Source: Mermis nigrescens
Lineage: Eukaryota; Nematoda; Enoplea; Mermithida; Mermithidae
Reading direction: 5' to 3'
Length of the DNA stretch: 64,000 nt
Assembly: GCA_036768485.1 (NCBI GenBank)
Contig: JAVLUZ010000270.1
Location: forward strand, 372,001-436,000
Shown here: piece by piece, positions 31,140 to 54,899 of the stretch
Layout: every line of letters begins with the position of its first letter
How positions within the stretch are numbered: the first letter of the stretch is position 1
Notes under the pieces: generated by a model
What the model was told of the DNA's origin: nothing
What the model saw: the letters and a program-made list of their open reading frames with translations, nothing else
Database searches by the model: none
Made by a program: the position numbers and the translations under genes

Positions 31140-31985
31140 CTAATACTAATGGAAATCATATGATCACTTACTTTAGGATTAAGCTATTTGGTTCAGTGAG
31201 TTAGTAATTAGTCGGGCCGCACACACACGTGGGCGTGTGATGGGGGTTTGGGGGTATGCACCCCCAGAAGTTGAAATACAGCCCGCAGATTACTGTACAC
31301 CCCAGAATGATATTCTTAGCAACCTTTGGCTATTTTTGGCAATTTACCCCAACTAAACCCCCCAGAATTTTCTTGCTGCCCACCTATGGTGTCTGGACAT
31401 AATCTTTATAAATGGTCTTGCAAAATCGAGAATACCACAGCTCAAACTAAATTTCATACAAAAACAGAAGTTCTGTTTATATGCAAATCTTAAAAACGAT
31501 GATGAATTAACATTCTGAAATTATGCACCTATTATTATGGGGTGATGGAGGGGCTGTTATCCGCCTCTGGAGGATCAACCAGACAGGTTTTAGCCGATGA
31601 TTTTGATCTGATAAAGCAATTTTGGCATCATTTTTGATAGCAAAATTATTACAAATGCCAAAATCTTGATCTGCTGTCTTGTTTACCCAAACGTGCTCCA
31701 AATCGAGTCAAAATAATCCAAAAAATAAATTTTTCGACAAAAATTGAATTTTTATAGTTTTTTATTGTTAAAAGCGCTGCAATCGAAAAAACAATTAAAA
31801 ATAGTATATGTTTATATAGGCTATTTTGATCATTTTCATCCTTTAAAGAAAAAATGCACAAAGACCAATTTTCTGTTTTGGATTTTGGGATTTTACCCCT
31901 TGCCGACCATGATGACCTTGTACGCCTACTGCTGAATGTGAATGCAAAAAAGTACATAAAACATGACAGGTTTGCTTTTTTGCAG
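31140..31985. other. Intron of hAT transposase with MITE debris
   Basis: Contains a shortened relative of the MITE (about 31215-31390; CACACACGTGGGCG ... GCTGCCCACCTATGG). Otherwise AT-rich intronic sequence ending ttgcttttttgcag. Confidence 0.6.
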
Positions 31986-32501
31986 GTGCTTCTATTCATT
32001 GCACGCTACGAACTGCCATTGCGTGGCGATCATGATCATGGTCGATTATCCCTAGAAGAGCCAGAAGAAAATGATGGAGTTTTCCGTGGTATACTGCGCC
32101 TGCTTGCCAGATCAGGCGATCAGACTATTTGTACGTTGCTCAAGGCACCTGGAAGCGCGACCTACTTGTCTCCAGCTATACAAAATGAATTGTTGACATG
32201 CTACTCAAATGCTGTTTTACGAAAGATAACAGCAGATGTCAATCAGGCGGGAATGTTTACACTGATTGCTGATGAGACCTCATCATATTCTCGCGAATTT
32301 CTTAGCCTAGCCGTTCGCTATATCAGCAGCAAATCAGAACAAATTGTCGAAAATTTCATAGGCTTCCAGAAAATAAACGAAACATCTGGTGAAATGATCA
32401 GCAATGCACTACTTAGCCGATTGAACGATTTAGGAATAAGCGTTAGTGGATTGATAGCACAGGGATACGATGGTGCGGCAAATATGGCTGGACAAATAAG
32501 A
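31986..32501 (+). pseudogene. hAT transposase exon: DUF4371-like catalytic region
   Basis: Acceptor ttttttgcag. Reads VLLFIARYELPLRGDHDHG, MFTLIADETSSYSR (acidic catalytic-core motif), QGYDGAANMAGQIRG, then donor gtgaga. Strong match to ZMYM1/Tip100-type transposases by motif. This exon has no disruption. Confidence 0.85.
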
Positions 32502-33946
32502 GGTGAGAGAAACTGTTAACAGCAAAAATTTATTTGTTTTTGTAAAAAATAAAAATTCAAGAGCTGTAAGAAAATACAATTTTTGTCATTATAAAAAATA
32601 TAGACAGACAATTGCTGATTCCGGCATGAAACGCCACATATTTTTTGGAAATTTAGTCATGAATAGGTTACCTACCTATTTTTCCAAATACATAATTTAA
32701 TTGAATTTTTGAATATTAATGAAAAATATATTCAATCTTTTGGTGTTTAGAACTTCCTTGATTAAACGTTCTTCTCACATAAAATATTTTGCGATTAACC
32801 TAGCATGATCAATTCTATATTTATTTTTATGTAATCCTAATTAATCTTACTTTTTTATGAGGAAAATACCCATTCATGATTTTATTTCATTATTTTTTAA
32901 TCCTGCTTTGTAAAATTCATATTCGAGTGTTTTTGATTCAAATGTCAAAGATTTTTTTAAATTCACTAAAGTCAAATTGTCGAGTAATATCAAAATAAAG
33001 TGTTTTCTGTCTAAATAGTTCAAAGCAGTGTTGTTTATTCATTATTATGTGATAAAAGTATTACATTGTATCACCTCATCCTTAGTCAAAAAAAGGCTTT
33101 AGAATAACACATTTTACTGGTGCCACATTCATTATATTAATGCAATGTAGATAAAAGAAAAGTGAGTAACCCCATCTTTTAATTCATAAGCTAATCAGTA
33201 TAATTTAATCATTAACCATCTTTAAATTAAATATTAATTATGCCTTATAAATATTTTATGTAAGGCAAAATAAATGAATAAAACTGAGCCGAGGCAAGCA
33301 TGATACAAGTCATATAAAGTTAGCAAATTGGTTTCCAAATGATAAGTAATGGAGCATGCGCCATGTTGGGAGTTGAGGGCACATGTGGGCGTGGGGGTTG
33401 GGGGCATACATGAGCAGCACCAAAATTCTGGGGGTCCGGATGGGGTAAAATGACAAAAAAGTGCCAAAAATAGCAATTCTGGGGGGCCTAGTGGCAATTA
33501 TCGATTTTTGGGAGGTCCGCCAGGTTCTGGAGGATCCAGCCAGACCCCCCACGCCCATGTGTCTTTGGGGGTATGCACCCCCCAGAAGGTCGAATACACC
33601 TAGAAATCAAAATACCCCCATAATTTCTTTTTTTGAAATTTTTTTGATTTTTTTCGCAATTTTTTGATGCCAATGGATTGTGCTTGATGAAAAACATCCA
33701 AAAATGGCGTTCTTTCGCCCTACCACCATTTTTAAGGCAACTTTTTACCTTTGAAAAATGTTGCACCCCCAAATTTTTGATGCTGCCCACCTATGGCTGA
33801 GGGTTTAGATTTAAAAATCTAGAAAGCCCTGTAGAATATAGTAGATCCCAGAATTAGAATTTCGACAGTTTTTTGGTGATTTTTCCCCATGCAGACCTCC
33901 AGAATCTGGTTGGTGGCCATGAATGAGCAAAATGTAAGATTCTGCT
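32502..33946. other. Intron of hAT transposase with MITE fragments
   Basis: AT-rich. From 33405 to 33800 lie two overlapping MITE-family pieces (catacatgagcagcacc ... cgcccatgtgtc and ...gatgctgcccacctatgg) with unclear duplications. Acceptor gctttgcttatag at 33946. Confidence 0.6.
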
Positions 33947-35179
33947 TTGCTTATAGGAGTTCAAGCTCGAATAAAGCAAAAGTGCCCATATGCCGATTAT
34001 TTTCATTGCGCTAGTCATCGTGTAAATCTGGCAGCAACAGATGCAGCAGCAATGTTTCCAATTAGTAGATTGTTAGCTCGTGTTCAAGAAGTAATCGTTT
34101 ACTTATCCGGCAGTCCAAAAAGAGCCGAAATTTTGAAACAAGCTATAAAGGACGTTTGTCCGGAAAGCCATTTAAACCATCTGCCTCAGTTATGCCCAAC
34201 TAGATGGGTTGAAAGACATGAAACTTTGAGCAGTTTCCAGAAGCTTTTTTTGCCAATAACAACGGCTTTGCAACGTATAGCTGAGACCGAAAGTGATAGC
34301 ACGGCGGAAGATCTACTAAATAACGTGTCATCATTTGAAACCCTAGTTTCGCTTCACATAGCTACTATTGCAGCGGGAATATTGCAGCCCCTTTCAGCAT
34401 ATTTGCAGTGTAAATCAACTGACTTAATACGAGCTTTCGACGAAGTAATGATAACCAAAGAAGTACTGAAACTTCAGCTAGAAGATTCAACAAGGTTTGA
34501 CGAAGCATATAATAAAGTGCTTTCATTGAGTCGTGAATTAGGAATTTAAGAAAGTTCACGATTCAGCGAAAAACGACGTCAGCGGCAATCTGTTGCTCTG
34601 TATGGAGAACAGACGATTAGGAACAATATTACAAGAAAGCTTTGCACGATAAATATTTCTCAGCTCTAATCGAGCAAATTCAAATGCGCTTTAATAATCG
34701 GCAGCAAACCGCTTTCAGACTACAATATTTTTTGCCACGATATTTTGAAGTTCTTTCGTTTGCTGCAGTTGAGAAAGCTTTAATACAATATGAAAAATTC
34801 TTTGTTAGATATTTCAGAAACGATGGTCAAACCAGAAATTGAACGATGGAAGCTTAGAATGAAAACTTTTGAGGAAGAGGACACTTTGCCAAATTTGTTA
34901 AAAGTTTTCAGGGAAGACGGAACTTTAAAGACATTCTTTCCAACTGTATTTGTTGCGCTTAGGCTTTTGATAACATTACTGGTGACTACTGCTACTTCTG
35001 AACGGTCATTTTCGACATTAAAACGTATTTTGACGGATTTGCGTAGTTCAATGGTTACTGAACGACTGTCCGCGTTAGCCATTCTTTCAATTCATCAAAA
35101 AGACGCCCGTGAAATAAGCAGCGATGTTGTTATCAATGCATTTAGTGAATCTGGAAAGCGTCGTATTGCCTTACGTTGA
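33947..35179 (+). pseudogene. hAT transposase last exon, disrupted
   Basis: Continues GVQARIKQKCPYADYFHCAS then CPTRWVERHETL, both conserved in this transposase group, and a long helical insertion domain. An in-frame stop occurs at about 34547-34549, then frame changes near 34640 and between 34785 and 34850. The final frame carries the dimerisation motif TTATSERSFSTLKRI and ends at 35179. The protein cannot be made intact. Confidence 0.85.
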
Positions 35180-42050: not shown

Positions 42051-42056
42051 ATCCAA
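42051..42056. other. Polinton target-site duplication, left
   Basis: atccaa, identical to 52169-52174. Six base pairs is the duplication size characteristic of Polintons. Confidence 0.92.
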
Positions 42057-42709
42057 AGTAGTAAGGCGTGGGTCCCTAGGGAGCAATGCTATAACATAGC
42101 CTGTGCTATAGCATAGGCAAGGACGTTAAAATCTGCGCCCTGGCTTTTCTCAGGGCGCAAGAATTGGGCGTGCCTGGACCTGCCCGGGGAGGGGGTGCGT
42201 CCAGCCCAGGGCCAGGGGCCCAGGGCCAGGGAGAGGAAATTTCCATGGGTAACCCCGGGTGTTATTACCCAGGGGGTTATTACCCCGGGGGTTATTTTTG
42301 AAGAGGCGTAAGTCAAGAACCAGCGGTCGGATCGGGCTCAAATTTTCAGAGTATATTAGGTATATGTTAGACATGCTATGCACAGAATTTCAGCGCGCAG
42401 CCTACAGTATACCAATTTACTTTACACTTTCTCATATAGTACTCTAACTTTAGGGATAGAGGGCGGATTTAGCTCAAACTTCCAGGGTAAGATATATAAA
42501 TTGTTGCTGCGCTATGTACAAAATTTTAGCGCGCAACCTACAGTATACCAATTTTTTACAATGCTCCCAGGAAAAATTGTGTGCACGCGCTCAGGCAGGG
42601 GCCCAGAGTCAGATGGGGGACACTACCGCTACTTTACACCGCTGTATGATCGTTCGTGATGCATAATATTCTCTTGCTTGCTCGCTGAAATGTTGCCACA
42701 GATTAGCTA
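42057..42709. repeat. Polinton terminal inverted repeat, left (653 bp)
   Basis: Reverse complement of 51385-52168. The outer 250 bp is GC-rich with ccaggggcccagg and ccccggg palindromes; the inner part has two copies of a unit of about 135 bp (core agaaagtgtaaagtaaatt ggtatactgtagg). The right repeat has three such units, accounting for the length difference. The innermost 65 bp is an inverted copy of coding sequence from the [YC]FW 3 fragment. Confidence 0.92.
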
Positions 42710-42712
42710 GAA

Positions 42713-43485
42713 TTAGGGCATTTTTGTAATCAGGTTATAATGATTATTAGCAGTGTGCAACTGAATCACCTTGGCAGCTTTAGGTCCTTCAAAAAACAAA
42801 ACATTGCCATGATATATTTTTATTTGGAACTCTGGCACCAAAGCATTTTGAATTTTCTCTACAGCTTCAAGCCCATATTTATCTTCATAAATGCTAAGAT
42901 TAGCTTTGTGCATCAGTTCTAATGCTAGCTGTCTTTGTATGGTGTGCCGCATCTTATCTCCTTTTCTTATAGACTCCCATTTTGGGCTCTTTTCTAGCTT
43001 TGCTATTCCTGTTACAACAGCTCGAGGTAGGGATAAATTATCATTTGAGGTGATTTCAATATATCCACCTCCATTTTTACAAAACTCCCTCAAATCAGGT
43101 TCAAGGCCAGTTCCGGTTTGTTGTTTTTTGTCAATAATAACTATTTTGAAAGCTATGTCCTCGCTTAAGCAAAACTCGTTCTTAGACTGGGCTACATTTT
43201 CAATAATGCTCAAAACCTTGTCAGCATTTATATACTCACGTTGAGTAAATGGAACTAATACAGGCGCATGAAGGCACGGTTGTCTAATTTCAATACCTAC
43301 CAAAGAGTCAGGAGGACAGTCATGCAACATCTGCTTGATAGCTTCCTCAAAAATCTGCTCAAAGACCTCAAACAGATTAGGGCATTTCTTAAACCGCAGC
43401 AAAAATGCTCTTGCAGTTGTCTTAAACCTACGAACAAAAATCTCTGGGAACTCATGGGTACTTCAAAGTATTTATTCAGATCCAT
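42713..43485 (-). pseudogene. Polinton DNA polymerase B, N-terminal fragment
   Basis: Only the amino-terminal region of the protein-primed family B polymerase remains, with recognisable Polinton PolB blocks (EIRQPCLHAPVLVPFTQREY, NDNLSLPRAVV, DKMRHTIQRQLALELM). A likely ATG lies at 43485, 37 nt from a TATA box, but its frame differs from the main frame, which is open from about 43465; a frameshift therefore lies near 43455-43470. The frame stops at 42713-42715, three bases from the terminal repeat. The exonuclease and polymerase domains that should follow are absent. A replication enzyme would have to come from elsewhere. Confidence 0.85.
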
Positions 43486-43522
43486 TTTTAATGTAAGAAC
43501 TTTATGGAGTTATACTTGCCCA

Positions 43523-43533
43523 TATTTATAGAC
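43523..43533 (-). promoter_or_regulatory. TATA box for PolB
   Basis: GTCTATAAATA on the minus strand, 37 nt before the ATG at 43485. Faces the box at 43546 in a divergent pair. Confidence 0.75.
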
Positions 43534-43545
43534 ATACAATCAAAA

Positions 43546-43558
43546 TCTATAAATACTA
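43546..43558 (+). promoter_or_regulatory. TATA box for the zinc-ribbon ORF
   Basis: TCTATAAATACTA, 50 nt before the ATG at 43606; consensus form of the element-wide motif. Confidence 0.78.
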
Positions 43559-43605
43559 ATAATGGTCTACTGTTTAAATACTCTTTTTAGTACGATAAGG
43601 AGAAA

Positions 43606-43935
43606 ATGGAAGAAATCAGGGAAATCCAAAAGCGTCTTTTTCTGGATGAGGAGAAGAAGCCATATGGCCGGTCCATCAAACCGGCCATCGAGCTATGTGG
43701 GAGGAACTTGGATCGGCCCATGTACTCCCTAATGATCCAGCTTTGCTATTTTTGTCAGAAAAATAGTTCTGAAAGGGACTTTTTCGAAACAAATTCTGGC
43801 AGGTGGTACTTGAATATCCAAATGTGCCCTAGGTGCAGCGAGTTTAATAGAGCCATGCAGGAAGCGGGCAAAAGAGTGCTGAAGCGCTATTCTGATCAGC
43901 AGGCTGAGGAGGAAAAGGCCAAAACAGCCTACTAA
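43606..43935 (+). CDS. Small zinc-ribbon protein (109 aa), function unknown
   Basis: Not recognised as a named Polinton gene. Visible features: a charged N-terminus (MEEIREIQKRLF), one CxxC pair (CYFC, about residues 47-50) and a second (CPRC, about 74-77) 23 residues later, and a basic/acidic helical C-terminus. This spacing fits a treble-clef or zinc-ribbon fold. Such ribbons occur in transcription factors as well as in many DNA-binding proteins, and the element also encodes a TBP. A role in transcription is only a hypothesis. Own TATA box 50 nt upstream; TAA immediately precedes the next TATA box. Confidence 0.7.
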   Translation: MEEIREIQKRLFLDEEKKPYGRSIKPAIELCGRNLDRPMYSLMIQLCYFCQKNSSERDFFETNSGRWYLNIQMCPRCSEFNRAMQEAGKRVLKRYSDQQAEEEKAKTAY

Positions 43936-43946
43936 GTCTATAAATA
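43936..43946 (+). promoter_or_regulatory. TATA box for [YC]FW protein 1
   Basis: GTCTATAAATA directly after the stop of the preceding ORF; 49 nt before ATG 43996 and 25 nt before ATG 43972. Confidence 0.75.
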
Positions 43947-43971
43947 AGGGTGCGCGTTAGGTATATTATAT

Positions 43972-44322
43972 ATGCAGCTTTTAAAAAAAGAAAGCATGTC
44001 TTCACCCGGTGAACTAGCGTACCATCATTTTATCCGAAAGCTTATTGAAAAAGCTAACAATCGCTACTTGAGCGTCAGAAATGTTCAAAGCATAGGCTCC
44101 TGTTTCTGGGGTTACATGAGCGATGCGTTTAAAGAGGAACAGCGCGAAATTGATAAACGCGAAGCGTTTTGGATTTTTGCATTGAGACTGAAAGCAGCCA
44201 TTTTAAACAAGGATGTTGATTCTTTGTGTGGCTTGTATGCGGCTTTTGATCAAAATGGAAAGAACATGTGGGAAAACATGTATGATAACTGTATTTTGCA
44301 ACAAGTAAATCGTTTGTTGTGA
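43972..44322 (+). CDS. Small [YC]FW-motif protein 1 (108-116 aa), unknown
   Basis: Start either 43972 or 43996 (MSSPGELAYHH). A helical small protein with the segment IGSCFWGYMSDAFKEEQ, then a second helix region and an aromatic C-terminus (MWENMY). It aligns by eye with the ORFs at 45547-45867 (IGDYFWPKMSNQYRQ) and 51180-51485 (LGRYFWSKLNAEYKQ): the same ([YC])FW-x2-[MLF] core at the same distance from the N-terminus and similar total length. Three diverged copies in one element point to an expanded family. No function is known to me; not an enzyme by any visible motif. Confidence 0.72.
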   Translation: MQLLKKESMSSPGELAYHHFIRKLIEKANNRYLSVRNVQSIGSCFWGYMSDAFKEEQREIDKREAFWIFALRLKAAILNKDVDSLCGLYAAFDQNGKNMWENMYDNCILQQVNRLL

Positions 44323-44459
44323 ATTTACAGTAAAATGTGCGTTTTCGAAAAACGCAGGCTCCCGTTGCTCTTAACCTCCACGTGGTGGGAGCCGGAAACG
44401 ATCCGTTTGATCGGCCAATAAGAGCATAAATATTAAGGAATAAAATAAAAAATGTAAAA
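44323..44459. other. Intergenic region with hairpins before the integrase
   Basis: Contains an imperfect palindrome tgcgttttcgaaaaacgca (44338-44356), then a GGCTCCC ... GGGAGCC stem (44357-44363 with 44387-44393) enclosing the palindrome ccacgtgg. Could act in RNA 3'-end formation of the upstream gene; this is inference. Confidence 0.55.
44424..44434 (+). promoter_or_regulatory. TATA-like box for integrase
   Basis: GCATAAATATT, the most diverged of the boxes, 27 nt before the ATG at 44460. Confidence 0.6.
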
Positions 44460-45519
44460 ATGGATAAATTGTTGACAAAATTATATTATGACCCTCAAAC
44501 TGGGTATACGGGGGCGAATCAACTTTTTGCTCGAGTGAAAAAGGTGCGCCCAGCTAGCAAAATTTGAAAAGGTAAAAGCATGGCTGGAAAAGCAACCCAC
44601 GTATACACTACACAAACCTGCAAAGAAACATTATTCACGTAACAAGGTAATCGTTAGCGGGGTTGATGAGCAGTGGCAAGCAGATTTGGTTGATCTACAA
44701 TCGTTAGCCGACCACAATCATAATTTTAAGTACCTACTCAATTGTATTGATATTTTCTCAAAGTACGCATGGTCAGTGCCACTTAAAACAAAAACTGGTA
44801 AAGAAATTATCGCATCTTTTCAGAAAATTTTCAAATCGTCGGGCCGTAAACCATATAAACTGCAAACGGATCAGGGAACTGAGTTTACAAACAAGGAATT
44901 TCAGCAATTTTTGAAATCTCAATTTATTGACTTTTTCACGACCAAAAGCGAAATGAAAGCTAGTATTGTTGAGCGGTTTAATCGTACGCTTAAGGAACGC
45001 ATGTGGCGGTATTTCACTAAAAAGAATACATTTAAATATATTGACATTTTACCCGATTTGCTTAAAAATTATAATAATTCTTTTCATAGGACCATTGGTA
45101 CATCCCCTGCTAACGTTACCTATAAAAACGAAAGAGAAATTTTAAACAAAGCATTCAGAATTGATAAACCGAACGTTGTTTTTAAATTTGATATTGGTGA
45201 TAAAGTTCGTATAAGTAAAGTGAAACGCACATTCGAAAAAGGATTCTGGCCCAACTGGACCGAAGAATATTTCATTGTTAAGGAGAGGTTTGCTCGCACA
45301 CCACCCGTTTATACTCTCGAAGATCAAAAGGGGGAAAAATTAGAGGGTGTTTTCTACGAAACCGAGTTGCAGAAAATTATTTCAAAATCAGATGATTTAT
45401 TCGTGATTGAAAAAATTATAAAAATTCGTAAAAAAGGCAAGAAAACTGATTATTTGGTGCGCTGGAGAGGCTACCCGCCTAAATTTGACTCGTGGGTTTC
45501 TGATATTGTAAAGCTATAA
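44460..45519 (+). pseudogene. Polinton integrase (retroviral-type, chromodomain), one frameshift
   Basis: Catalyses integration of the element. ATG at 44460 gives the conserved N-terminus MDKLLTKLYYDP ... TGANQLFARVKK. The frame meets TGA at 44565-44567; the rest lies in the +1 frame, so there is a single +1 (or -2) shift within 44556-44566. Downstream are the DDE core residues (D in WQADLVD, D in QTDQGTEF, E in SIVERFNRT) and a C-terminal chromodomain (FVIEKIIKIRKK, YLVRWRGYPPKFDSW). The TAA stop lies inside the next gene's TATA box. Probably an inactivating indel; stop-associated +1 frameshifting cannot be excluded. Total about 350 aa. Confidence 0.9.
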
Positions 45520-45525
45520 ATAGTA
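45513..45525 (+). promoter_or_regulatory. TATA box for [YC]FW protein 2
   Basis: GCTATAAATAGTA; overlaps the integrase stop codon (45517-45519) and lies 24 nt before ATG 45547. Confidence 0.75.
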
Positions 45526-45546
45526 AGTTAAATCTTAAGATCAAAA

Positions 45547-45867
45547 ATGGAGTCTATTGGTCAGTGTTTTTTCAATCATATTCTACATCGTTTATCACAA
45601 TACGCACATTTGTCTAATGATGCCATTGGTGATTATTTTTGGCCAAAAATGAGCAACCAGTATAGGCAAACATTGCTTAAATTTGATGATCATGCTATTT
45701 TGAGCTTCTCAAAGTTTATCAGAAAACGCCTGAAAAAGGGCGATCTTTGCCTGCTGTTCAACTTGTGGGAATTTTTAAGCCCTGAGGCTAGGTTTTACTT
45801 TGCGAACCTCCACACAAAAATCATTGATGAACACATAACTTCATCCATGTCATCAGTATTGATCTAA
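45547..45867 (+). CDS. Small [YC]FW-motif protein 2 (106 aa), unknown
   Basis: Second member of the element's small-protein family. N-terminal helix SIGQCFFNHILHRLSQYAHL, core AIGDYFWPKMSNQYRQTLLK, then a basic segment FIRKRLKKGD and an aromatic tail FYFANLH. It resembles the 51180-51485 fragment more than copy 1. Its stop is followed at once by a 22-bp tandem array that separates it from the convergent TBP gene. Function unknown. Confidence 0.72.
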   Translation: MESIGQCFFNHILHRLSQYAHLSNDAIGDYFWPKMSNQYRQTLLKFDDHAILSFSKFIRKRLKKGDLCLLFNLWEFLSPEARFYFANLHTKIIDEHITSSMSSVLI

Positions 45868-45868
45868 A

Positions 45869-46133
45869 AATTTGCAAAGTTTGGAATATTTTTTGTAAAG
45901 TTTGGAATATTTTTTGTAAAGTTTGGAATATTTTTTGTAAAGTTTGGAATATTTTTTGTAAAATTTGGAAATAATTTTACATGCTTAAGCATAGTACTTT
46001 TGTAAAGTTTGGAATATTTTTGTAAAGTTTGGAATATTTTTTGTTAAGTTTGGAATATTTTTTGTAAAGTTTGGAATATTTTTTGTAAAGTTTGGAATAT
46101 TTTTGTAAAGTTTGGAATATTTTTGTAAACTTT
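45869..46133. repeat. 22-bp tandem array between convergent genes
   Basis: About eleven copies of tttgtaaagtttggaatatt with small length changes, broken once at 45975-46005. It fills the whole space between the stop of the ORF at 45547-45867 and the stop of the TBP gene (46140). Very A/T-rich; could insulate the two convergent transcripts. Confidence 0.9.
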
Positions 46134-46139
46134 GAAATA

Positions 46140-46658
46140 TTATGTATCTAACCTGCATTTCTCAAGCATTGTCGAAACTATTTTATATGCTCTGTGCAAC
46201 TCATGCTCCTGTTTTGCACCTGTAAGGATCAATTTTCCGCTTGTGAACAGCAAAAATGTTATATTTCTGAATTTGTATATTAAGCCAGGAAACAATTCCA
46301 CTTCATACATGCATTTTCTTTTCACCAGCTCATAAAATTCGCAAAGATTAATGCGGAACCCTAAATTAGCAGAGCCTACAAACATATGGGGTTTCACCTT
46401 TAAATCATCACTCCTAGCATTTAATGCATCTACAGCTGCTTTTATAGCACTTTCACCATCTTTCACTGTTTTGGCTCCAACACATACAATTTTACCTGAT
46501 TTGAAAATCAGTAATGTTGCCTGAGGTAGTCGAAATACAATTCCTGGAAATCTCAAATAATTGTATTGTGCGGTCTTTGGTAATTTCTGGTATATTTCTT
46601 CGAGGTTAAGCGTATGGGGCAGTGCTGTAGTCAGTAAAATATTTTGTATAGTCACCAT
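46140..46658 (-). CDS. TATA-binding protein (TBP) homologue, 172 aa
   Basis: TBP is the saddle-shaped DNA-binding factor that nucleates transcription at TATA boxes. This protein spans a TBP core with its two direct repeats: lobe 1 RFPGIVFRLPQATLLIFKS then GKIVCVGAK (residues 36-63), and lobe 2 ELFPGLIYKFRNITFLLFTS then GKLILTGAK (121-149). The motif VGSANLGFRINL (94-105) joins them. The four phenylalanines that kink TATA DNA are present (F37, F52, F123, F138). Both lobes carry FPG, a symmetry more like archaeal TBP than animal TBP. Start set at 46658 (MVTIQ), 29 nt from a minus-strand TATA box; an upstream in-frame start at 46718 would pass through that box. No introns; inside the Polinton between two element genes. 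Confidence 0.93.
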   Translation of the reverse strand: MVTIQNILLTTALPHTLNLEEIYQKLPKTAQYNYLRFPGIVFRLPQATLLIFKSGKIVCVGAKTVKDGESAIKAAVDALNARSDDLKVKPHMFVGSANLGFRINLCEFYELVKRKCMYEVELFPGLIYKFRNITFLLFTSGKLILTGAKQEHELHRAYKIVSTMLEKCRLDT

Positions 46659-46661
46659 TTT

Positions 46662-46671
46662 TCTATAAATA
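46662..46671 (+). promoter_or_regulatory. TATA box for the packaging ATPase
   Basis: TCTATAAATA, 32 nt before ATG 46704. Lies in the 5' leader of the divergent TBP gene. Confidence 0.78.
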
Positions 46672-46685
46672 CTTCCTGATAAACT

Positions 46686-46697
46686 TATATTTATACC
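46686..46697 (-). promoter_or_regulatory. TATA box for TBP
   Basis: GGTATAAATATA on the minus strand, 29 nt before the TBP ATG at 46658. Interleaved with the ATPase box in a 45-bp bidirectional promoter. Confidence 0.75.
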
Positions 46698-46703
46698 TAA
46701 AAC

Positions 46704-47366
46704 ATGATGTTCCAACATCCTTTCACCTGCCTTGTTTCAGGACCAACAAAGTCAGGCAAAACAACATTTGTCAAGCGATTAATTGAGAATAGAGCATGCC
46801 TGATTGATACTAAAATTAAAAAGATTTGGTGGTGCTTCGCAGAAAATCAGCCTCTTTATAAAAAATTAAATGATGTTTCATTCATAGAAGGGCTTCCTGA
46901 TTTTAATTACCTAAAACAATTTAGTCATGTGCCTCAACTTTTGATTCTCGATGATCTTATGCAACAGAGCAAGGGTAATGCCCAGATTGTGCAACTTTTT
47001 ACAAGGAGTTGTCATCATTGGAACATTAGCATTATACACATTGTTCAAAACGTTTTCTTTGATGGTCTAAGAACTTCACGCATCAACTCTGATTATATAG
47101 TTTTATTCAAACACCCTGCTGATCAGTTACAGGCACAAATGCTTTCCAGACAGCTCTATCCTGCCAACGCTAAATATTTTCTAGAAGCTTATTCTGATGC
47201 TACTTCTCAGCCACATGGTTACCTTTTAATTGATCTAACTCAAAATGCTAGAGATGAGCTGAGGCTTAAAACAAATATTTTTAGCAGGCATCCAACTGTT
47301 TATATGCAGAAATCTATAAATACTAGTAGAGATATTGTGACAAAAAAATGGGTAAAGAACGATTAA
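46704..47366 (+). CDS. FtsK/HerA-type DNA-packaging ATPase (220 aa)
   Basis: Genome-packaging motor of the Polinton/adintovirus virion. Walker A GPTKSGKT at residues 13-20 and Walker B LLILDD at 79-84, followed by a sensor-like segment (IIHIVQNVFFDG, with Q and N in the usual position). Length matches the A32-like ATPases of this group. The C-terminus QKSINTSRDIVTKK is encoded by the TATA box of the next gene, so coding and promoter overlap. The next ORF starts 19 bases before this stop. Confidence 0.9.
   Translation: MMFQHPFTCLVSGPTKSGKTTFVKRLIENRACLIDTKIKKIWWCFAENQPLYKKLNDVSFIEGLPDFNYLKQFSHVPQLLILDDLMQQSKGNAQIVQLFTRSCHHWNISIIHIVQNVFFDGLRTSRINSDYIVLFKHPADQLQAQMLSRQLYPANAKYFLEAYSDATSQPHGYLLIDLTQNARDELRLKTNIFSRHPTVYMQKSINTSRDIVTKKWVKND
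47313..47325 (+). promoter_or_regulatory. TATA box for the 116-aa core protein
   Basis: TCTATAAATACTA inside the ATPase coding end, 25 nt before ATG 47348. Confidence 0.78.
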
Positions 47367-47698
47367 CACGCAATATTGGTTGTTTACATCTCCTAAGTCA
47401 AGCAAAAAAACCTCAAAGAACCGCTATTATAAATACTGCCAGCAAAGATCAAATCCTTTGTCTCTGTGACTGTGCAAACAACTTTCTGAATGGTAATATT
47501 CCTTTCGATAAAAAGGATATAAATAAACTTCGAAGATATCAGAATCAAATTAGATACCTGGCAAACAATAAGCAGGCGACTACAAAACAAAAGAAAGATA
47601 TTATAATACAGGAAGGTGGTTTTCTTCCTCTTTTACTTACTCCCATACTTACAATAGCTGGTAGTTTATTAGCTGATGCAATAGCTGGTAGAAAATGA
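47348..47698 (+). CDS. Small basic virion-core-type protein with hydrophobic tail (116 aa)
   Basis: A basic lysine-rich protein (KKDINKLRRYQNQIRYL, KQATTKQKKDI) ending in a glycine-leucine hydrophobic tail (GGFLPLLLTPILTIAGSLL). This architecture is common next to capsid genes in Polintons and adintoviruses, where related ORFs are compared with the adenoviral core peptide; the role (DNA condensation or membrane action) is inferred. Its TGA overlaps the ATG of the following gene (ATGA, 47695-47698). Confidence 0.75.
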   Translation: MGKERLTRNIGCLHLLSQAKKPQRTAIINTASKDQILCLCDCANNFLNGNIPFDKKDINKLRRYQNQIRYLANNKQATTKQKKDIIIQEGGFLPLLLTPILTIAGSLLADAIAGRK

Positions 47699-48261
47699 AA
47701 CATACTGAAAAAATGATTCTTATACCCGCTGAAATCAGCGAGCGGACTAAACCTATTGATGTTGTGCTAGATTCCTTGGATAATGAATTGCAAAAAGTTT
47801 TGCATAGCAAACGTATAGCTCCTGAAATAAAACTCATGAAATACAATCAGGTGCTTAACAGATTTAAACGACTATATGAACAAAAGCAGCAGCCATATAG
47901 AGCTAGTATAGTTGACAATACAAAGAATGCATTGAGTGATGAAGATGTGCTTGTTGGTATGCCAAAAAATCAGATCCCAAAGGCAAAACTCCTTCTTCAC
48001 TACATTCGTACAAACCCATTTATTGAAATTGAGCCTAATGGTGAGCTTGTGATAGATGGCAATAGAATTGAAGGCTCAAACATTACAGATTTAGTTAATG
48101 ATCTTGCACGTGAGCGTAAGAAAATAAGCAGGCACCCTGGCACAAAAGAATTGCTGAAAGTGTTTAATCGTACAAATGTTCCACTGGAAAGTATAGTAAA
48201 TAGACAAGGTAAGGAGATTTTCGCTGCAGGTGGGGAATTCGACTGGGATGAAAGTCTATAA
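47695..48261 (+). CDS. Conserved Polinton virion-associated protein (188 aa)
   Basis: Resembles an uncharacterised protein commonly found beside Polinton capsid genes. It has an N-terminal helical half (VVLDSLDNELQKVLHSKRIA, KYNQVLNRFKRLYEQ) and a second domain IRTNPFIEIEPNGELVIDG followed by SNITDLVNDLARERK. No catalytic motif. There is no TATA box of its own; it begins in the ATGA overlap with the preceding ORF, suggesting termination-reinitiation. Its stop lies in the next TATA box (CTATAA). Confidence 0.78.
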   Translation: MKHTEKMILIPAEISERTKPIDVVLDSLDNELQKVLHSKRIAPEIKLMKYNQVLNRFKRLYEQKQQPYRASIVDNTKNALSDEDVLVGMPKNQIPKAKLLLHYIRTNPFIEIEPNGELVIDGNRIEGSNITDLVNDLARERKKISRHPGTKELLKVFNRTNVPLESIVNRQGKEIFAAGGEFDWDESL

Positions 48262-48267
48262 ATACTT
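48255..48267 (+). promoter_or_regulatory. TATA box for the 149-aa core protein
   Basis: TCTATAAATACTT; overlaps the stop codon of the preceding gene; 38 nt before ATG 48303. Confidence 0.78.
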
Positions 48268-48302
48268 ATCACATATAATTTATTCAAAACAAAATTACAA
48301 AA

Positions 48303-48752
48303 ATGCACGTTCAATTCAATTCTAACGATTACAACATTTGGTTGGACTACTACACAGGGCAGGCTGCCCAAACAGGCTATGGGTTGGAAGGGTATAAAGG
48401 CATCCCATACCAGCGGGGCGTAGGTCTTGGCAGTTTTTTCCGTTCGCTTTTTAGAATGGCAGTCCCAGTTTTGCAGTCAATTGGTAAGCGAGTTGGAAAA
48501 CATGCTCTAGTTGCAGGTTCAAACATAGCGTCTGATTTGGCCCAGGGAAAACCGCTTTTTGAGTCTACTAAAGAACACTCAAAGCGAGAAGCTGCTCAAT
48601 TGTTTGATGAAGCCTCTCATGCCCTTCAGCAGCAGCAAGGAGAGGGTCTTGGTAGCCGCCCAAAGTCTATAAATACTAGCATGATAGATGCTTTTTCAAA
48701 ACAAAAAAATGGCTCTCGTAAACGGAAAATCTATCCCCAGTACCAAGACTGA
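48303..48752 (+). CDS. Amphipathic minor virion protein (149 aa)
   Basis: The N-terminal part leads to a conserved glycine-aromatic and amphipathic segment, IPYQRGVGLGSFFRSLFRMA then PVLQSIGKRVGKHALVAG, a pattern seen in small virion proteins of Polintons and adintoviruses and reminiscent of membrane-active adenoviral minor proteins. The C-terminus is basic (GSRKRKIYPQ). Residues KSINTS near the end are encoded by the TATA box of the major capsid gene. The last 44 nt overlap the major capsid ORF. Function inferred from position. Confidence 0.72.
   Translation: MHVQFNSNDYNIWLDYYTGQAAQTGYGLEGYKGIPYQRGVGLGSFFRSLFRMAVPVLQSIGKRVGKHALVAGSNIASDLAQGKPLFESTKEHSKREAAQLFDEASHALQQQQGEGLGSRPKSINTSMIDAFSKQKNGSRKRKIYPQYQD
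48666..48678 (+). promoter_or_regulatory. TATA box for the major capsid protein
   Basis: TCTATAAATACTA inside the preceding ORF, 33 nt before ATG 48709. Confidence 0.8.
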
Positions 48753-50001
48753 ACTGGACCTTTTTACGGTCCCTCCTACTCAAGTAGTGATAAAGCGTGG
48801 TTTTTGGCATGAAATTCAACCTACAAATCCTATTACTAATGAGGGACCATATGAATTTAGAGTACCTCCTGATCCACATTACATTCAGCTCAATAAAAAC
48901 TACATTTACATGCTACTGAGAATCAAAAAACCAGTAGTTGCTGCTGGAGCAGCAGTGCCTGACTATGCGCCTATCAATCTTATTGGTAAGACTTTCTTTA
49001 AGCAGGTAAAATGCTTTTTAGGAGGCAAATTAGTTTTTGACAGCTCTGATAAATATGCATATAGATCGTATTTTGAAACCGAATTAAATTATGGGTATGA
49101 TGCCAAGCATTCGCATTTGCAATCTGCGCTGTACTTTCACGAAGGTGGAAGTGATGTTGACACAAAAGACAATGAAGCTTTCAAAAAACGTTCAAAAATG
49201 TTCAAAGATGAAAATGTTGTGGAAGTTGCGGCCCCACTGCACATTGACATGTTCTTGCAAGACAGATATTTAGTTAATTTTACCGATTTCCGCCTAGAAT
49301 TACACAGAAATAATAATGCATTTGTTTTGCAGTGCTTTGAGGATGTCAGCCTTGACTTGAAAGTCTCACAAATGAAATTTTTTATTCGAAAAGTTGAGGT
49401 TTTGGACACTGTGAATTTAGCTCTTGAGCAAACAATGCTTTCCTATACAGCAAAATATCCCATAAGGAGAGTAGCTTTGACTAATTTGCACATTTCAAAT
49501 CCTGCTAGAGAAACGCCCAATTATACATTGTTTACTGGTCAGCTGCCTAGGCGTATAGTGTTTGCTTGTGTTGAAGGCAGTGCTTATCGAGGCAATCTAG
49601 CAAAATCGCCTTTCAACTTCAAACCGTTCAGCATAAATGATGTAAAAGTAACGTGTGGAGGTATAACGTATCCTGCTTACCCACTCAGCATTTCATTTAA
49701 ACATGACAGGTACTTGCAAGCCTATACTCAGATGTTTGATGCATTAGATATTGGGCATGAAGGTAATTTTATTAGCAGAGAAGATTTTAAAACAAGTCAC
49801 TGCTTCTTTGTGTTTGATTTGACTCCTGATGCGGATGATGGAGGACACTGGGACCTAGTTCGTGAAGGAACAACAAGCATCGCTGTTAGGTTTTCTGAGA
49901 ATTTACCCGATTCTGGCATTGAAATCATTATATATGCTGAATTTGATAACTTAATAATGATTGATAAAAACCGAAACACGTTTCATGACTATGATGCATA
50001 A
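48709..50001 (+). CDS. Polinton major capsid protein, double jelly-roll (430 aa)
   Basis: Matches the Polinton major capsid family, often left in databases as F54H12.2-like uncharacterised proteins: PYEFRVPPDPHYIQLNKNYI, YFETELNYGYDAKHSHLQSA (diagnostic LNYG-DAK block), HIDMFLQDRYLVNFTDFRLE, and a second beta domain ending in IIIYAEFDNLIMIDKNR. Length is typical for a double jelly-roll hexon-like subunit. Start set at MALVNGKS (48709), 33 nt from its TATA box; the frame is open for seven more codons upstream without an ATG. The protease ORF begins two bases after the stop. No frameshift. Confidence 0.93.
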   Translation: MALVNGKSIPSTKTELDLFTVPPTQVVIKRGFWHEIQPTNPITNEGPYEFRVPPDPHYIQLNKNYIYMLLRIKKPVVAAGAAVPDYAPINLIGKTFFKQVKCFLGGKLVFDSSDKYAYRSYFETELNYGYDAKHSHLQSALYFHEGGSDVDTKDNEAFKKRSKMFKDENVVEVAAPLHIDMFLQDRYLVNFTDFRLELHRNNNAFVLQCFEDVSLDLKVSQMKFFIRKVEVLDTVNLALEQTMLSYTAKYPIRRVALTNLHISNPARETPNYTLFTGQLPRRIVFACVEGSAYRGNLAKSPFNFKPFSINDVKVTCGGITYPAYPLSISFKHDRYLQAYTQMFDALDIGHEGNFISREDFKTSHCFFVFDLTPDADDGGHWDLVREGTTSIAVRFSENLPDSGIEIIIYAEFDNLIMIDKNRNTFHDYDA

Positions 50002-50003
50002 AC

Positions 50004-50420
50004 ATGAACACTATTGAAATATTCAAAATTCTCAAACATAATAATACATTTGCAGGCGTTTTCCCAATAGATCGTCTGCCACCTATAAGAACCTACCCTG
50101 CGGCTCTAGTTGTAAATTTGGACCCCAGTGAGGAACCAGGATCACACTGGATCGCAATTTATTTTCAAAATAAGAAGCATTGTAACTATTTTGACAGCTA
50201 TGGCTTAGAACCACCTGTGCAATTGCATAAATACATTTCTGATAATGCGCTCTCATTTACATACAATAATATGCGAGTACAAGAGCTTTTCTCAATCAGC
50301 TGTGGTCATATGTGTATCTACTTTTTGGTCTGCATGAGCAAAGGCATAAGTTTCACAAACATTGTTCTATCTATGCGCAGTGAAAAAATTTATAAATATT
50401 TCAATAAACTAAGGTTATAA
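50004..50420 (+). CDS. Adenain-like cysteine protease (138 aa)
   Basis: Capsid-maturation protease of the Ulp1/adenain clan. The catalytic set is visible: H48 in PGSHWIAIYF, D64 in NYFDSYG, Q93, and C100 in ISCGHMCIYFL. Shorter than adenovirus protease, as usual for Polintons. It starts two bases after the major capsid stop and has no TATA box, so it probably depends on the capsid transcript. The TATA box of the next gene is embedded in its 3' coding end (KIYKYF). Confidence 0.92.
   Translation: MNTIEIFKILKHNNTFAGVFPIDRLPPIRTYPAALVVNLDPSEEPGSHWIAIYFQNKKHCNYFDSYGLEPPVQLHKYISDNALSFTYNNMRVQELFSISCGHMCIYFLVCMSKGISFTNIVLSMRSEKIYKYFNKLRL
50389..50401 (+). promoter_or_regulatory. TATA box for the minor capsid protein
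   Basis: TTTATAAATATTT, 26 nt before ATG 50425, within the protease coding end. Confidence 0.72.
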
Positions 50421-50424
50421 AAAA

Positions 50425-51204
50425 ATGGATATGAAACAGTTTTACATAACGCTTCCGAGCAATTCACAAGAAACAAATACTGCAGCCACATTTGTTACCA
50501 ATCTGCCTAGACAAATCGCATTAACTGGTGACTGGGAGGTTGGGTTAGCTGAAATAATTTATGCAAATACATGGCACAATGTTGCCGAGGAGCAGAATAT
50601 GATACAGTTTTATGACATCAAAAACAATGTGCGACAAAAATTGCTTATTCCTCGAGCAAGATATTTAAATATACATGACCTCATCCAAACCATGAGGAAT
50701 GGAATAAAAACGGTTAGCCAAATAGACAAATTTGATTACATGCAATATTTTGGCATAAAGTATGATGAAAATAGGAAATTTTGTAACTTAACAATCAATA
50801 CTGAATATATTCAAAGTGTAAAGCTGACAAAGCATTTAATGTATATGCTAGGATTTCTAGAGAGCCAGCTTAGCAATATAGATTATACTGTAAAAAAAGA
50901 ATTAAACATAGTTGCGCACCATTCACCCGACATGCTAGGTGGAATGCACAACTTTTACGTATATTGCGATATAGTTGAGCCTCAAATCGTTGGAAATGTT
51001 TTTGCACCGCTTCTGCAGGTTGTGAATATAGAAGGAAAATATATGGATATTGTTAATCACGCATATATTAGTCCACATTATATACCTGTGCTCAAAAAAT
51101 CATTCAATACCATTGAAGTGAACATTAAAAGTGATCAAGATAAACCTGTGCCTTTTGAATTTGGCAAAACAATTGTTAAAATGCATTTCAGGTATCGGCT
51201 ATAA
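50425..51204 (+). CDS. Polinton minor capsid (penton) protein, single jelly-roll (259 aa)
   Basis: Starts MDMKQFYITLPSNS and contains the family block FVTNLPRQIALTGDWEVGLA, then beta-strand-rich sequence ending KTIVKMHFRYRL. This arrangement and length match the Polinton minor capsid protein that caps the five-fold vertices. Intact. Followed by the broken third [YC]FW copy, whose open frame overlaps its last codons. Confidence 0.9.
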   Translation: MDMKQFYITLPSNSQETNTAATFVTNLPRQIALTGDWEVGLAEIIYANTWHNVAEEQNMIQFYDIKNNVRQKLLIPRARYLNIHDLIQTMRNGIKTVSQIDKFDYMQYFGIKYDENRKFCNLTINTEYIQSVKLTKHLMYMLGFLESQLSNIDYTVKKELNIVAHHSPDMLGGMHNFYVYCDIVEPQIVGNVFAPLLQVVNIEGKYMDIVNHAYISPHYIPVLKKSFNTIEVNIKSDQDKPVPFEFGKTIVKMHFRYRL

Positions 51205-51485
51205 ACATTTTATTATCACACCTGCTTCGCCTGAACAGCGTATCCGCCTTTGCCTTAGGCAGATACTTTTGGTCTAAGCTCAATGCTGAGTACAAACAAA
51301 GTTTAGTAGAAAATGATGCTGAGGCTATCAGCAATTTTACCAAACTTGTCAAACAATGTTTCACTTTTCGTGATTTGCCTACCGTAGCTAATCTGAGGCA
51401 ACATTTCAGCGAGCAAGCAAGAGAATATTATGCATCACGAACGATCATACAGCGGTGTAAAGTAGCGGTAGTGTCCCCCATCTGA
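51180..51485 (+). pseudogene. Small [YC]FW-motif protein 3, truncated and fused into the terminal repeat
   Basis: No ATG follows the frame opening at 51180. Recognisable sequence starts near 51207 (ILLSHLLRLNSVSAFALG) and has the core LGRYFWSKLNAEYKQSLVE and tail FSEQAREYYAS. It aligns with the ORF at 45547-45867 over about 80 residues. From about 51385 on, the coding sequence lies inside the right terminal inverted repeat, and the frame ends there at a TGA (51483-51485). Lacks a start and a TATA box, so probably not expressed. Confidence 0.75.
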
Positions 51486-52168
51486 CTCTGGGCCCCTGCC
51501 TGAGCGCGTGCACACAATTTTTCCTGGGAGCATTGTAAAAATTGGTATACTGTAGGTTGCGCGCTAAAATTTTGTATATAGCACACCTTATATATCTTAC
51601 CTCTGAAAGTTTGAGCTAAATACGCCCTATAGTTCTCGAAATATAGTACTATATGAGAAAGTGTAAAGTAAATCGATATACTGTGGGTACTTACTCCAAA
51701 TTTTTGTAATAATTCACAAATAGGGTATTCACCCTACTCTGAAAATTTCAGCTAAATCCGCCCTATAGTTCTTGAAATATAGTGCTATACGAGAAAGTGT
51801 AAAGTAAATTGGTATACTGTAGGCTACGCGCTGAAATTCTATGCGTAGCATGCCTCGCCTATATACATCATACTCTGAAAATTTGAGCCTGATCCGAGTG
51901 CTGGTTCTTGACTAACGCCTCTTCAAAAATAACCCCCGGGGTATTAACCCCTGGGTAATAACACCCGGGGTTACCCATGGAAATTTCCTTCTCCCTGGCC
52001 CTGGGCCCCTGGGCCCTGGGCTGGACGCGCACCCTCCCCGGGCAGGTCCGGGCACGCCGATTCTTGCGCCCTGAGAAAATCCAGGGCGCAGATTTTTACG
52101 TCCTCGCTCTATGTTATAACACAGGCTATGTTATAGCATTGCTCCCTAGGGACCCACGCCTTACTACT
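51385..52168. repeat. Polinton terminal inverted repeat, right (784 bp)
   Basis: Inverted counterpart of 42057-42709, with one extra internal unit of about 135 bp (three copies of the gagaaagtgtaaagtaaa block). Ends ...CCCACGCCTTACTACT. The inner 70 bases match the left copy with a single difference, so the repeats have been homogenised recently, although the middle sections have diverged. Confidence 0.92.
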
Positions 52169-52174
52169 ATCCAA
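52169..52174. other. Polinton target-site duplication, right
   Basis: atccaa, identical to 42051-42056. The sequence beyond (gggcaatgtgtaagcc ... gtgtaaactt) resembles the left-flanking minisatellite, showing the insertion target. Confidence 0.92.
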
Positions 52175-52863: not shown

Positions 52864-53344
52864 ACCTCTGTATTGATCTTAAATGAACGCGGTCAACTTC
52901 ATCGTGTAGCCCTTGAATCCTAGTACATTTCTGTAAATAGATTTTTAGGGAACTTCTATACAAAAAATTTAGCAGACATAAAAATGTCGAAAACTCGATC
53001 AAAATGTGTCTTTTCACCCCCATATTTTCGCACTCCTTACACTCAAACTCGTGAACTATTGCAAAATTCAAAAAAACAAAAAAAATAGTTAGAGGATTTT
53101 GTCTTCTACAATTCTCTAGGTGAGTTGTGTACAAGCTGAGCAAGAAAACTGGCAGAAGTGTATATATGTTATAACGTTAAGCCACATTTTACACCTTCTT
53201 TATACAGCCGGTATTGAGTTTAAACAAAAACAAAAAAAGGGTTTGTCCCGTTATAACTTTAGCGGGTATACATATGTTGGGGTACCCAAGTATATTATAG
53301 GTACGCGATAACGCGTTACCTATGATAATTGAATAGATTTACAA

Positions 53345-54885
53345 ATTGCTCGTCTAGCAATCGCTCGCCCAGCAATTGCTCGCCCAGAAATTGCTCGCCC
53401 AGCAATTGCTCGCCACAGCAATTTCTCGCCCAGCTATTGCTGCTCGCCCAGCTTTTGCTCGCCCAGCAATTGCTCGCCCAGCAATCGCTCGCCCAGCAAT
53501 TGCTCGCCCAGCAATTGCTCGCCCAGCAATTGTTCGCCCAGCAATTGCTCGCCCAGCAATTGCTAGCCCAGCAATCGCTCGCCCAGCAATCGCTCGCCCA
53601 GCAATTGCTCGCCCAGCAATTGCTCGCCCAGCAATTGCTCGCCCAGCAATTGCTCGCCGAACAATTGCTCGCCAATCACCAACAATAGGTAGCCATACGA
53701 TTACTATCTGAGCAATTGCTCGCCATTGAATTGATCACATGGGAACCGCTCCCTAAGCATTGTTGCTCTCATTTATTTGAATCAGCGATTGTCATTCTAA
53801 ATTGGAATCATATAAATCATATACGCTATAAAAATGGAAGGTGTGTTAACTCCAATGGTATAATTAAGTACAATTCAGTTTTGCTGTGATGTTGCATACA
53901 TTTGCGCTCATACATTTATCTAGGTATAGATTGTTTCGTTTTTGGTAGGAAAGAGAGAAGAAGCAGTAGTTTCAGTTTGAAAGTATTCATTTTTAGTGTA
54001 CTAAAATGATTTTTAAATCCTTTAATCTGAATTTTCAGTTTTAATGCACTCAATAAAGTAGACAGGTGCTCGCCACCGCCATGCGATTGCTCGCCAATCA
54101 CCTGTGATTAGTCGAGAAATGCATTTTTAAGTTTTTTCAAATTCGTTCTATCAGATACAAGCAAAGTAATTCAAGTCGAAAATTTTTCCGAAAACTAAAT
54201 TGTACTTAATTACACAATTTTGTTCAGACCGGATGATTAAAAGATCCGAGCACGGTCAATTTTTGGAAGGAACGCAGTACTATGTTTATAGCGTTCCGAT
54301 ATAGAATGACTATTGTTGATTCGAAGAAAGGAGAAGCAACAATGCTTATGGAGCGATTCCCATGTGATCGATTCACTGGCGAACAATCGCTCAGCAAGTA
54401 ATAGTTCGGCTAGCAATGGTGATTGGCGAGCAATTGTTAGGCGAGCAATTGTTCGTAGAGCAATCATTTGGCGAGCAATTGCTGGGCGAGCAATTGTTGG
54501 CGAGCAATAGTTGGCGAGCAATTGCTGGGCGAGCAATTGCTGGGCGAGCGATTGCTGGGCGAGCAATTGCTGGGCGAGCAATTGCTGGGCGAGCAATTGC
54601 TGGGCGAGCAATTGCTGGGCGAGCAATTGCTGGGCGAGCAATTGCTGGGCGAGCAATTGCTGAGCGAGCAACTGCTGGGCGAGCAATTGCTGGGCGAGCA
54701 ATTGCCGGGCGAGCAATTGCCGGGCGAGCTATTGCTGGGCGAGCAATCGCTGGGAGAGCAATTGCTGGACGAGCAATTGCTGGGCGAGCAATAGCTGGGC
54801 GAGCAATTGCTGGCGAGAAATTGCTGGGCGAGCAATTGTTGGCGAGCAATTGTTCTCGAGCAATTGTTGGCGGGCAATTTTCCGC
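53345..54885. repeat. Foldback element with 15-bp tandem-repeat arms
   Basis: Left arm 53345-53735: about 26 copies of gcccagcaattgctc. Right arm 54370-54885: about 33 copies of the reverse complement gagcaattgctgggc. The unique sequence just inside the arms is also inverted (gatcacatgggaaccgctcc at 53733-53752 against 54342-54365; agcattgttgct). The loop (about 53830-54280) is AT-rich and non-coding. Resembles Foldback (FB) elements in architecture. Confidence 0.85.
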
Positions 54886-54899
54886 ACACGGCTAAAATA

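Follow-up and report, generated by a model that had tools for sequence, protein, structure and literature searches.

A TATA-binding protein gene and a shared TATA box in a Polinton-type element of Mermis nigrescens

The window (the whole stretch of 64,000 nucleotides of Mermis nigrescens DNA analysed here) contains a Polinton-type element that encodes a TATA-binding protein (TBP). New is the observation that one exact TATA box, TATAAATA, lies upstream of most genes of this TBP-bearing element. We suspect, with a probability of about 0.66 and by comparison of sequences, that a working element TBP drives the element genes from their own TATAAATA boxes together with host TFIIB and RNA polymerase II (Pol II). 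Among the matches listed in the open-licence literature, no report of a transposable element carrying a TBP was found; two papers that mention both Polintons and TBP deal, in the portions available, with mirusviruses or with elements putatively derived from them.

The element and its TBP gene

The element spans 42057-52168 (10,112 bp) and has a 6-bp target-site duplication, ATCCAA, at both ends (42051-42056 and 52169-52174). Its terminal inverted repeats (TIRs) start AGTAGTAAGG; the left one occupies 42057-42709 (first letters AGTAGTAAGGCGTGGG) and the right one 51385-52168. Genes on the plus strand include an integrase with rve and chromodomain matches (44460-45519; 55.2 and 36.3 bits in Pfam), the N-terminal frame of which is broken in the window copy, a packaging ATPase of FtsK/A32 type (46704-47366; Pox_A32, 23 bits, cut-off 22.8) and an adenovirus-type protease (50004-50420; Peptidase_C5, 24.3 bits, cut-off 21.3). 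A probable double jelly-roll major capsid protein is encoded at 48709-50001 (+), its match to PF21738 (16 bits) falling under the cut-off of 27; a relative in L151 (L- and C-numbers are locus and contig labels) reaches 20.4 bits. The remaining plus-strand frames are orf43606 (43606-43935), a 109-aa protein with two CxxC pairs whose homologues adjoin the TBP in families C and D (see below), orf43972 (43972-44322, 116 aa), orf45547 (45547-45867, 106 aa), orf47348 (47348-47698, 116 aa), orf47695 (47695-48261, 188 aa), orf48303 (48303-48752, 149 aa), orf50425 (50425-51204, 259 aa, with FYITLPSNS close to its start) and orf51180 (51180-51485, 101 aa), which extends into the TIR. Three related proteins of about 100-116 aa thus occur in one element, orf51180 being a paralogue of orf45547 and orf43972 a weak one (E 0.001), and they have kin in other TBP-bearing families. 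Comparison with PHROGs gave weak matches to unnamed families, and no TFIIB homologue was found among the element ORFs scanned with Pfam (all but orf51180).

On the minus strand, a 249-aa ORF at 42713-43462, with its frame broken near the start in the window copy and with no Pfam match, presumably resembles the N-terminal part of a Polinton PolB. Apart from this PolB-N-like ORF, PolB is absent from the 10.1-kb element by Pfam scan and ORF reading. The original assignment to the Polintons is borne out with one qualification: the TIRs, the 6-bp duplication, the integrase, the ATPase and the protease support it, and PolB is absent from the window copy. Because of this absence we name it a PolB-less Polinton-type element, which needs help to replicate. 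The PolB-N-like ORFs of the window and of L043 (467-1258, minus strand) end within a few residues of each other and have a dN/dS of 0.18, as if the ORF were retained as a stand-alone gene. Elsewhere in the window there are hAT-like transposase remnants, recognized by eye, at 31854-35179 (DUF4371 match at 31854-32519), and long 15-bp tandem repeats at 53316-54895 with several open frames on both strands and two inverted arrays.

Between orf45547 and the ATPase gene, and opposite in orientation to the virion module, 46140-46658 (-) encodes a two-lobed TBP of 172 aa, as judged from its translation, its Pfam match, selection and the tree. The PF00352 profile matches the ORF in two stretches (142.5 bits, E 3.7e-42, cut-off 22.9), and among proteins of solved structure the nearest to it in sequence is 1mp9 (E 1.8e-28). 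The original prediction had described an ORF with both TBP lobes at this place, all four TATA-intercalating Phe (F37, F52, F123 and F138) and an FPG motif in each lobe, and every one of these features is present in the translation and alignment. The strand motif, given there as GK-[VI]-x-GAK, actually reads GK-[IL]-x3-GAK in both lobes, and two residues of the usual strand loop are deleted in both. An alternative upstream ATG at 46718 would extend the protein to 192 aa; alignment with five relatives places their start at the Met of the 172-aa form, with a TATA box 34-45 nt before it. Directly 3' of the gene, a 21-bp sequence is tandemly repeated 13 times (45871-46141), and this repeat is also found at the TBP copy of L046.

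The window TBP belongs to family A in the scheme given below. The second intercalating Phe is Ile in one of five family-A rows (L046). The central-strand Asn is a common TBP feature outside the Pfam definition, and its loss bears on function, not on family membership. It is present in lobe 1 of family A, and in lobe 2 it is replaced by Met or Leu in all five rows, the position being Asn in all 48 cellular, archaeal and viral rows; with this replacement, DNA contact may differ in family A. The lobe-2 Asn is retained in mobile families C and E-H, and family D has Met. The stirrup E-x-E-L of TBP contacts TFIIB. This contact agrees with the available parts of PMC7221094 and PMC12529657. E-x-E-L is found in four of the five family-A rows and its Leu in all five; the same Leu occurs in eukaryotes (20/20 rows), and the position holds Gln in archaeal (19/19) and viral (9/9) rows and Ile in families D, F and H. 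In the first-lobe helix region, the mean number of basic residues is 2.8 in family A, 5.0 in eukaryotes, 4.9 in archaea and 2.4 in viral TBPs. Fewer basic residues in this helix may weaken contacts with TFIIA, NC2 and Mot1.

Copies, selection and phylogeny of the element TBPs

Searching the genome (523,963,438 bases in 860 contigs) with the window TBP gave at least 150 matches (150 scored of 2,243 candidates), so that the ORF is present in other copies of the family; by hand count, 119 of the 150 lack internal stops and 31 have them. The ATPase gene adjoins the TBP gene in all 30 close copies, window copy included, and the opposite side is occupied by orf45547 or the integrase in 29 of the 30. 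Gene order at L130 is the same as in the window over 4.5 kb at a DNA identity of about 79%, and TBP is also found next to the ATPase in subfamilies with a DNA similarity of about 80%.

The 30 best copies were picked by protein similarity and their low dN is therefore biased, so the claim of selection rests on divergent pairs. Between the window and L130, L139, L043 and L044, dN/dS is 0.105, 0.146, 0.147 and 0.151, respectively, and it is 0.172 between L130 and L139; dS in these five family-A comparisons is 0.95-1.29. Values of 0.21 and 0.30 were obtained for the window against L045 and L046, 0.14-0.26 for pairs among L043-L046, 0.131 for a family-D pair and 0.115 for family B. Two pairs of almost identical sequences, with few changes between them, gave 0.26 and 0.72. 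With dN/dS of 0.10-0.30 among divergent copies, the element TBP is under purifying selection, which together with the constant ATPase neighbour upholds the view that it is a true element gene.

Several features of other copies are worth recording. Protein identity between L043 and the window is 74-80% for the left genes (PolB-N-like, integrase and TBP) and 91-98% for the right genes, a gap that suggests that modules recombine. TBP copies in opposite orientation occur 1.6-4.6 kb apart on C61 (36478189/36482811), C814 (153384/155001), C48 (21247929/21251532) and elsewhere, and L129 shows one such pair. At L046, L127 and L128, a TBP of family A, together with the tandem repeat on its 3' side, lies in a different backbone with PolB-like pieces, an integrase fragment (37%) and TIR-like ends about 8.3 kb apart. 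The ORFs near TBP copies that we take to be PolB-like (L046/L127 and L150) were named by motifs and have no Pfam match.

A PF00352 search of the genome (150 scored of 2,551) found the host TBP as two exons without stops on C73, plus many other frames. Fifteen loci and the window fall into at least eight TBP families, which we label A-H. Neighbourhoods were read for families A, B, C, D, E and H, and six of the families were found next to genes of this or other Polintons. TBP neighbours are an orf43606-like protein and an F-box protein in family D, orf43606-like and F-box-like proteins in C, an orf45547-like protein and an F-box protein in E, PolB-like ORFs and an orf51180-like protein in H, and capsid, protease and orf50425-like genes in B. 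The F-box recurs beside TBP at L148 (646-1494, minus), L149 (3764-4666, minus) and L133 (2173-2505, plus) in families C, D and E, the calls being made by Pfam in D and E and by eye in C.

For the phylogeny, archaeal rows of the alignment comprised 17 of 80 fetched loci plus two proteins, and viral rows nine of 12 loci. The partial sequence EUK_p9 and ELEM_L045 were removed from the first tree; the second tree was built without these and nine long or redundant rows and included 10 of the 15 new TBP loci and five of the 12 viral loci; a further seven rows were left out of the third, which included 10 of the 120 listed database matches. The C20 tree unites families A, C, D, E, F, G and H in a single clade (95/87, 12 rows). 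Its sister is a group of eukaryotic TBPs, family B and the host TBP (97/98), and archaeal and viral TBPs lie apart from the mobile and eukaryotic side (100/98). Membership of family B in the mobile clade was rejected, as its long branch falls with or beside eukaryotic TBPs. Animal TBPs are joined by the host TBP but not by the element TBP, which makes a recent capture of the host TBP unlikely, as had been proposed. The AU tests, run on an earlier tree that did not include the other mobile families, rejected none of the placements (animals, represented by TBPL2 and Adineta rows, p 0.19; rows p7/p15/p20, p 0.30; archaea, p 0.21).

Six database proteins join the mobile clade in the third tree (99/91, 18 rows), three with the source 'jgi' and three with 'lgn', which are taken to be metagenomes and Logan. 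Among the matches listed from protein databases (best 120 of 2522 and of 2594), none has more than 44% identity to the window TBP. IMG/VR yielded no relatives of the capsid, the PolB-like piece, the integrase or the mobile TBPs. Kinship with the IMG/VR TBP contigs (L001-L012, contig parts) was rejected, the best tblastn match to other element genes having an E value of 0.29.

TATA boxes of the element and its relatives

Exact TATAAATA is found 32-58 nt before the ATG in 10 of 13 element genes; orf51180, which has no box, was left out of the 13 starts, and the starts of the integrase, the PolB-N-like ORF and the capsid gene were chosen by us. On the left side of the element, the boxes lie at 43523-43530 (-), -45 of the upstream ATG taken as the start of the PolB-N-like ORF, and, on the plus strand, at 43548-43555 (-58 of orf43606), 43939-43946 (-33 of orf43972) and 45515-45522 (-32 of orf45547). 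The 45-bp divergent spacer between the TBP and ATPase genes holds two of them, one for the ATPase (46664-46671, plus, -40) and one for the TBP gene (46688-46695, minus, -37). The others, all on the plus strand, are at 47315-47322 (-33 of orf47348, within the ATPase coding sequence), 48257-48264 (-46 of orf48303), 48668-48675 (-41 of the chosen capsid start, 48709) and 50391-50398 (-34 of orf50425). The box is missing at the integrase, which has CATAAATA at -35, at orf47695 and at the protease.

In 2,000 dinucleotide shuffles, the mean number of genes with TATAAATA was 0.27 and the maximum three, and a de novo search returned TATAAATA as the commonest 8-mer upstream of the element genes. The 10.1-kb element has 12 such sites, compared with seven in the 53.9 kb outside it; before other ATGs, the box occurs in 7 of 363 cases within the element and 12 of 1,884 outside. 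Boxes aligned between the window and its relatives are exact in 7/7 (L130), 5/5 (L044), 5/5 (L043) and 7/8 (L045) cases, against a background of 24%, 25%, 44% and 55%, respectively, for all aligned 8-mers.

Among the Polinton loci of this one genome, which form the comparison set, we distinguish lineage I (window, L043, L044, L045, L130, L155 and L156) from lineage II (L151, L153, L154 and L157). The contrast was drawn for the ATPase, orf47348, orf48303, capsid and orf50425 genes at starts with enough upstream sequence, the lineage-II counts covering the last four of these genes. Lineage I has TATAAATA at 28 of 28 starts and TATAAAAG at none, whereas lineage II has TATAAATA at none of 13 and TATAAAAG at nine; the remaining four are orf50425 starts with neither box (0/4). 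Fisher values for this contrast are 5.7e-11 and 2.0e-6, and are descriptive because the sequences are related: the contrast represents one evolutionary split, and the values overstate independence. Neither box is found at orf47695 and the protease, in 10 and seven cases, respectively.

The TBP gene itself has TATAAATA in six of six lineage-I loci and in two of four lineage-II loci, where TBP-B follows the orf50425-like gene in all four (its frame is broken in L157); none of the four L151 starts of family B has TATAAATA. L156 and L158 represent a lineage-I element with boxes and with no TBP within the 8.7 kb read, which may use the TBP of other elements or of the host, or carry its own beyond the 8.7 kb. 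At 18 starts outside the main set (other families and L046), TATAAATA occurs at six, all at -34 to -45: the orf43606-like gene of family C, the F-box genes of D and E, the orf45547-like gene of E, the orf51180-like gene of H and the TBP gene of L046. Upstream of the TBP genes of C, D, E, F, G and H it was found in none of six. At L149, L150 and L151, the TBP genes of families B (L151), E and H are preceded by TATATAAG or TATAAAAG at a distance of about 37-47 nt. Some neighbour genes in E and H carry TATAAATA, unlike their TBP genes, and an early/late split is possible.

Proposed role of the element TBP and comparison with known systems

From the kept stirrup, the few TFIIB matches in the genome (PF00382, four exon matches at two to three loci with all 10 candidates scored; not amplified) and the fewer basic residues of the first-lobe helix, we infer the following scheme. 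The element TBP would bind the element's own TATAAATA boxes and, via its kept stirrup, recruit host TFIIB and Pol II, so that the integrase-side and virion genes, the TBP gene included, would be switched on as one regulon. The changed first-lobe helix may let the element TBP escape some host control of TBP. The suggestion, made originally, that the element directs its own transcription finds indirect support in the shared TATAAATA boxes. Several findings count against the scheme: the L156/L158 element has boxes and no TBP in the 8.7 kb read, the TBP genes of six families (C-H) lack TATAAATA, the box occurs at only six of the 18 starts outside the main set, two of four TBP-B genes in lineage II carry it, lineage-II orf50425 has neither box, and the lobe-2 Asn is replaced in family A.

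TATAAATA and TATAAAAG both belong to the strong TATA sequences of eukaryotes, and TATAAATA-like sites are also bound by canonical TBPs, so the host TBP could read the element boxes. The element TBP might then act as a decoy or competitor, keeping TFIIB or TFIID partners away from host genes, or it might damp element expression. In favour of this, the genome has stop-free exons of a canonical host TBP, and the L156/L158 element has boxes and no TBP in the part read; however, most of the four Phe and of the stirrup acids are retained, although a pure decoy could do without them, and orthologous boxes differ between two lineages with different TBPs. We consider this explanation unlikely. TBP bends DNA and its gene is divergent from that of the packaging ATPase, which would suit a structural protein that acts in replication, packaging or integration and not in transcription. 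Such a role explains neither why the genes have a TATA box in common, at much the same distance before their start codons, nor why the TFIIB stirrup is kept, and we regard it as very improbable.

We know of no helper virus for this host, which counts against the idea that the boxes are tuned to helper-virus machinery, as virophage promoters are to a giant virus, and that TBP is a separate accessory gene; that the TBP gene has the same box in all six lineage-I loci with a TBP also argues against it. This idea seems to us quite improbable, even with the need of the PolB-less window copy for replication help and the giant-virus late promoter motifs that virophages and EMALEs carry (PMC10945749, in the part available). 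The stops inside the match in 31 of 150 copies (hand count) would fit a passenger copy of a host gene, functionless for the element. The evidence of selection (dN/dS 0.10-0.30 among divergent copies) contradicts this reading, which is also hard to square with at least eight TBP families, six of them beside genes of this or other Polintons, and we give it almost no credence.

A broader version of the reading in which the element TBP drives element genes can be put forward only tentatively, at somewhat below even odds. Polinton lineages would run private core-promoter codes, TBP-A with TATAAATA and TBP-B with TATAAAAG, each controlling a capsid and packaging regulon and borrowing only TFIIB and Pol II from the host; most of these TBPs would represent an old mobile lineage beside the cellular eukaryotic TBP, present in other sequence collections as well.

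Of the eukaryotic initiation factors, TBP is to our knowledge the most universal. Should the element boxes indeed be read by the element TBP, they would offer a small natural example of joint change in a core-promoter factor and the promoters that it serves, and TBP-TATA specificity and coevolution would be directly testable. It suggests a route by which a virus-like transposon could activate virion genes without a viral RNA polymerase, and raises the question of how so many extra TBP genes affect host transcription.

Like cellular TBP (PF00352), the element protein has two lobes, four intercalating Phe, the lobe-1 Asn and the E-x-E-L stirrup. It differs in its lobe-1 FPG, the two-residue loop deletions in both lobes, the lack of the lobe-2 Asn, fewer basic residues in the lobe-1 helix (mean 2.8 versus 5.0) and its position in a separate clade. 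The element resembles Polintons/Mavericks in its TIRs, 6-bp duplication, rve integrase, A32-type ATPase, adenovirus-type protease and capsid-like gene, and departs from them in the TBP gene, the uniform TATA boxes and the lack of PolB in the window copy.

Virus-encoded TBPs provide another comparison. According to the accessible text of PMC10132985, TBP occurs in 59% of mirusvirus genomes, and almost all dsDNA viruses with a TBP also have TFIIB, according to that of PMC7221094. As in these viruses, so far as those texts describe them, a virus-like DNA genome bears a TBP with the DNA-binding Phe; unlike in the TBP-bearing dsDNA viruses of PMC7221094, TFIIB is not amplified here, and the element is 10 kb long and integrates. 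The IMG/VR viral TBPs, from contigs without an assigned virus group, fall with archaea, whereas the element TBP does not. In the available part of PMC12529657, KSHV ORF24 replaces TBP on late promoters, reads TATTWAA within a six-protein complex and has no acidic residues for TFIIB. The likeness to this account lies in a viral factor in the place of TBP at promoters with one common TATA-like box; the element TBP, in contrast, retains the TFIIB acidic residues, and its promoters carry TATAAATA. Finally, promoter motifs vary with element type here as they do in virophages and EMALEs, but where their motif matches that of a giant virus (PMC10945749, as far as its available text goes), in this case the TBP is encoded in the element itself.
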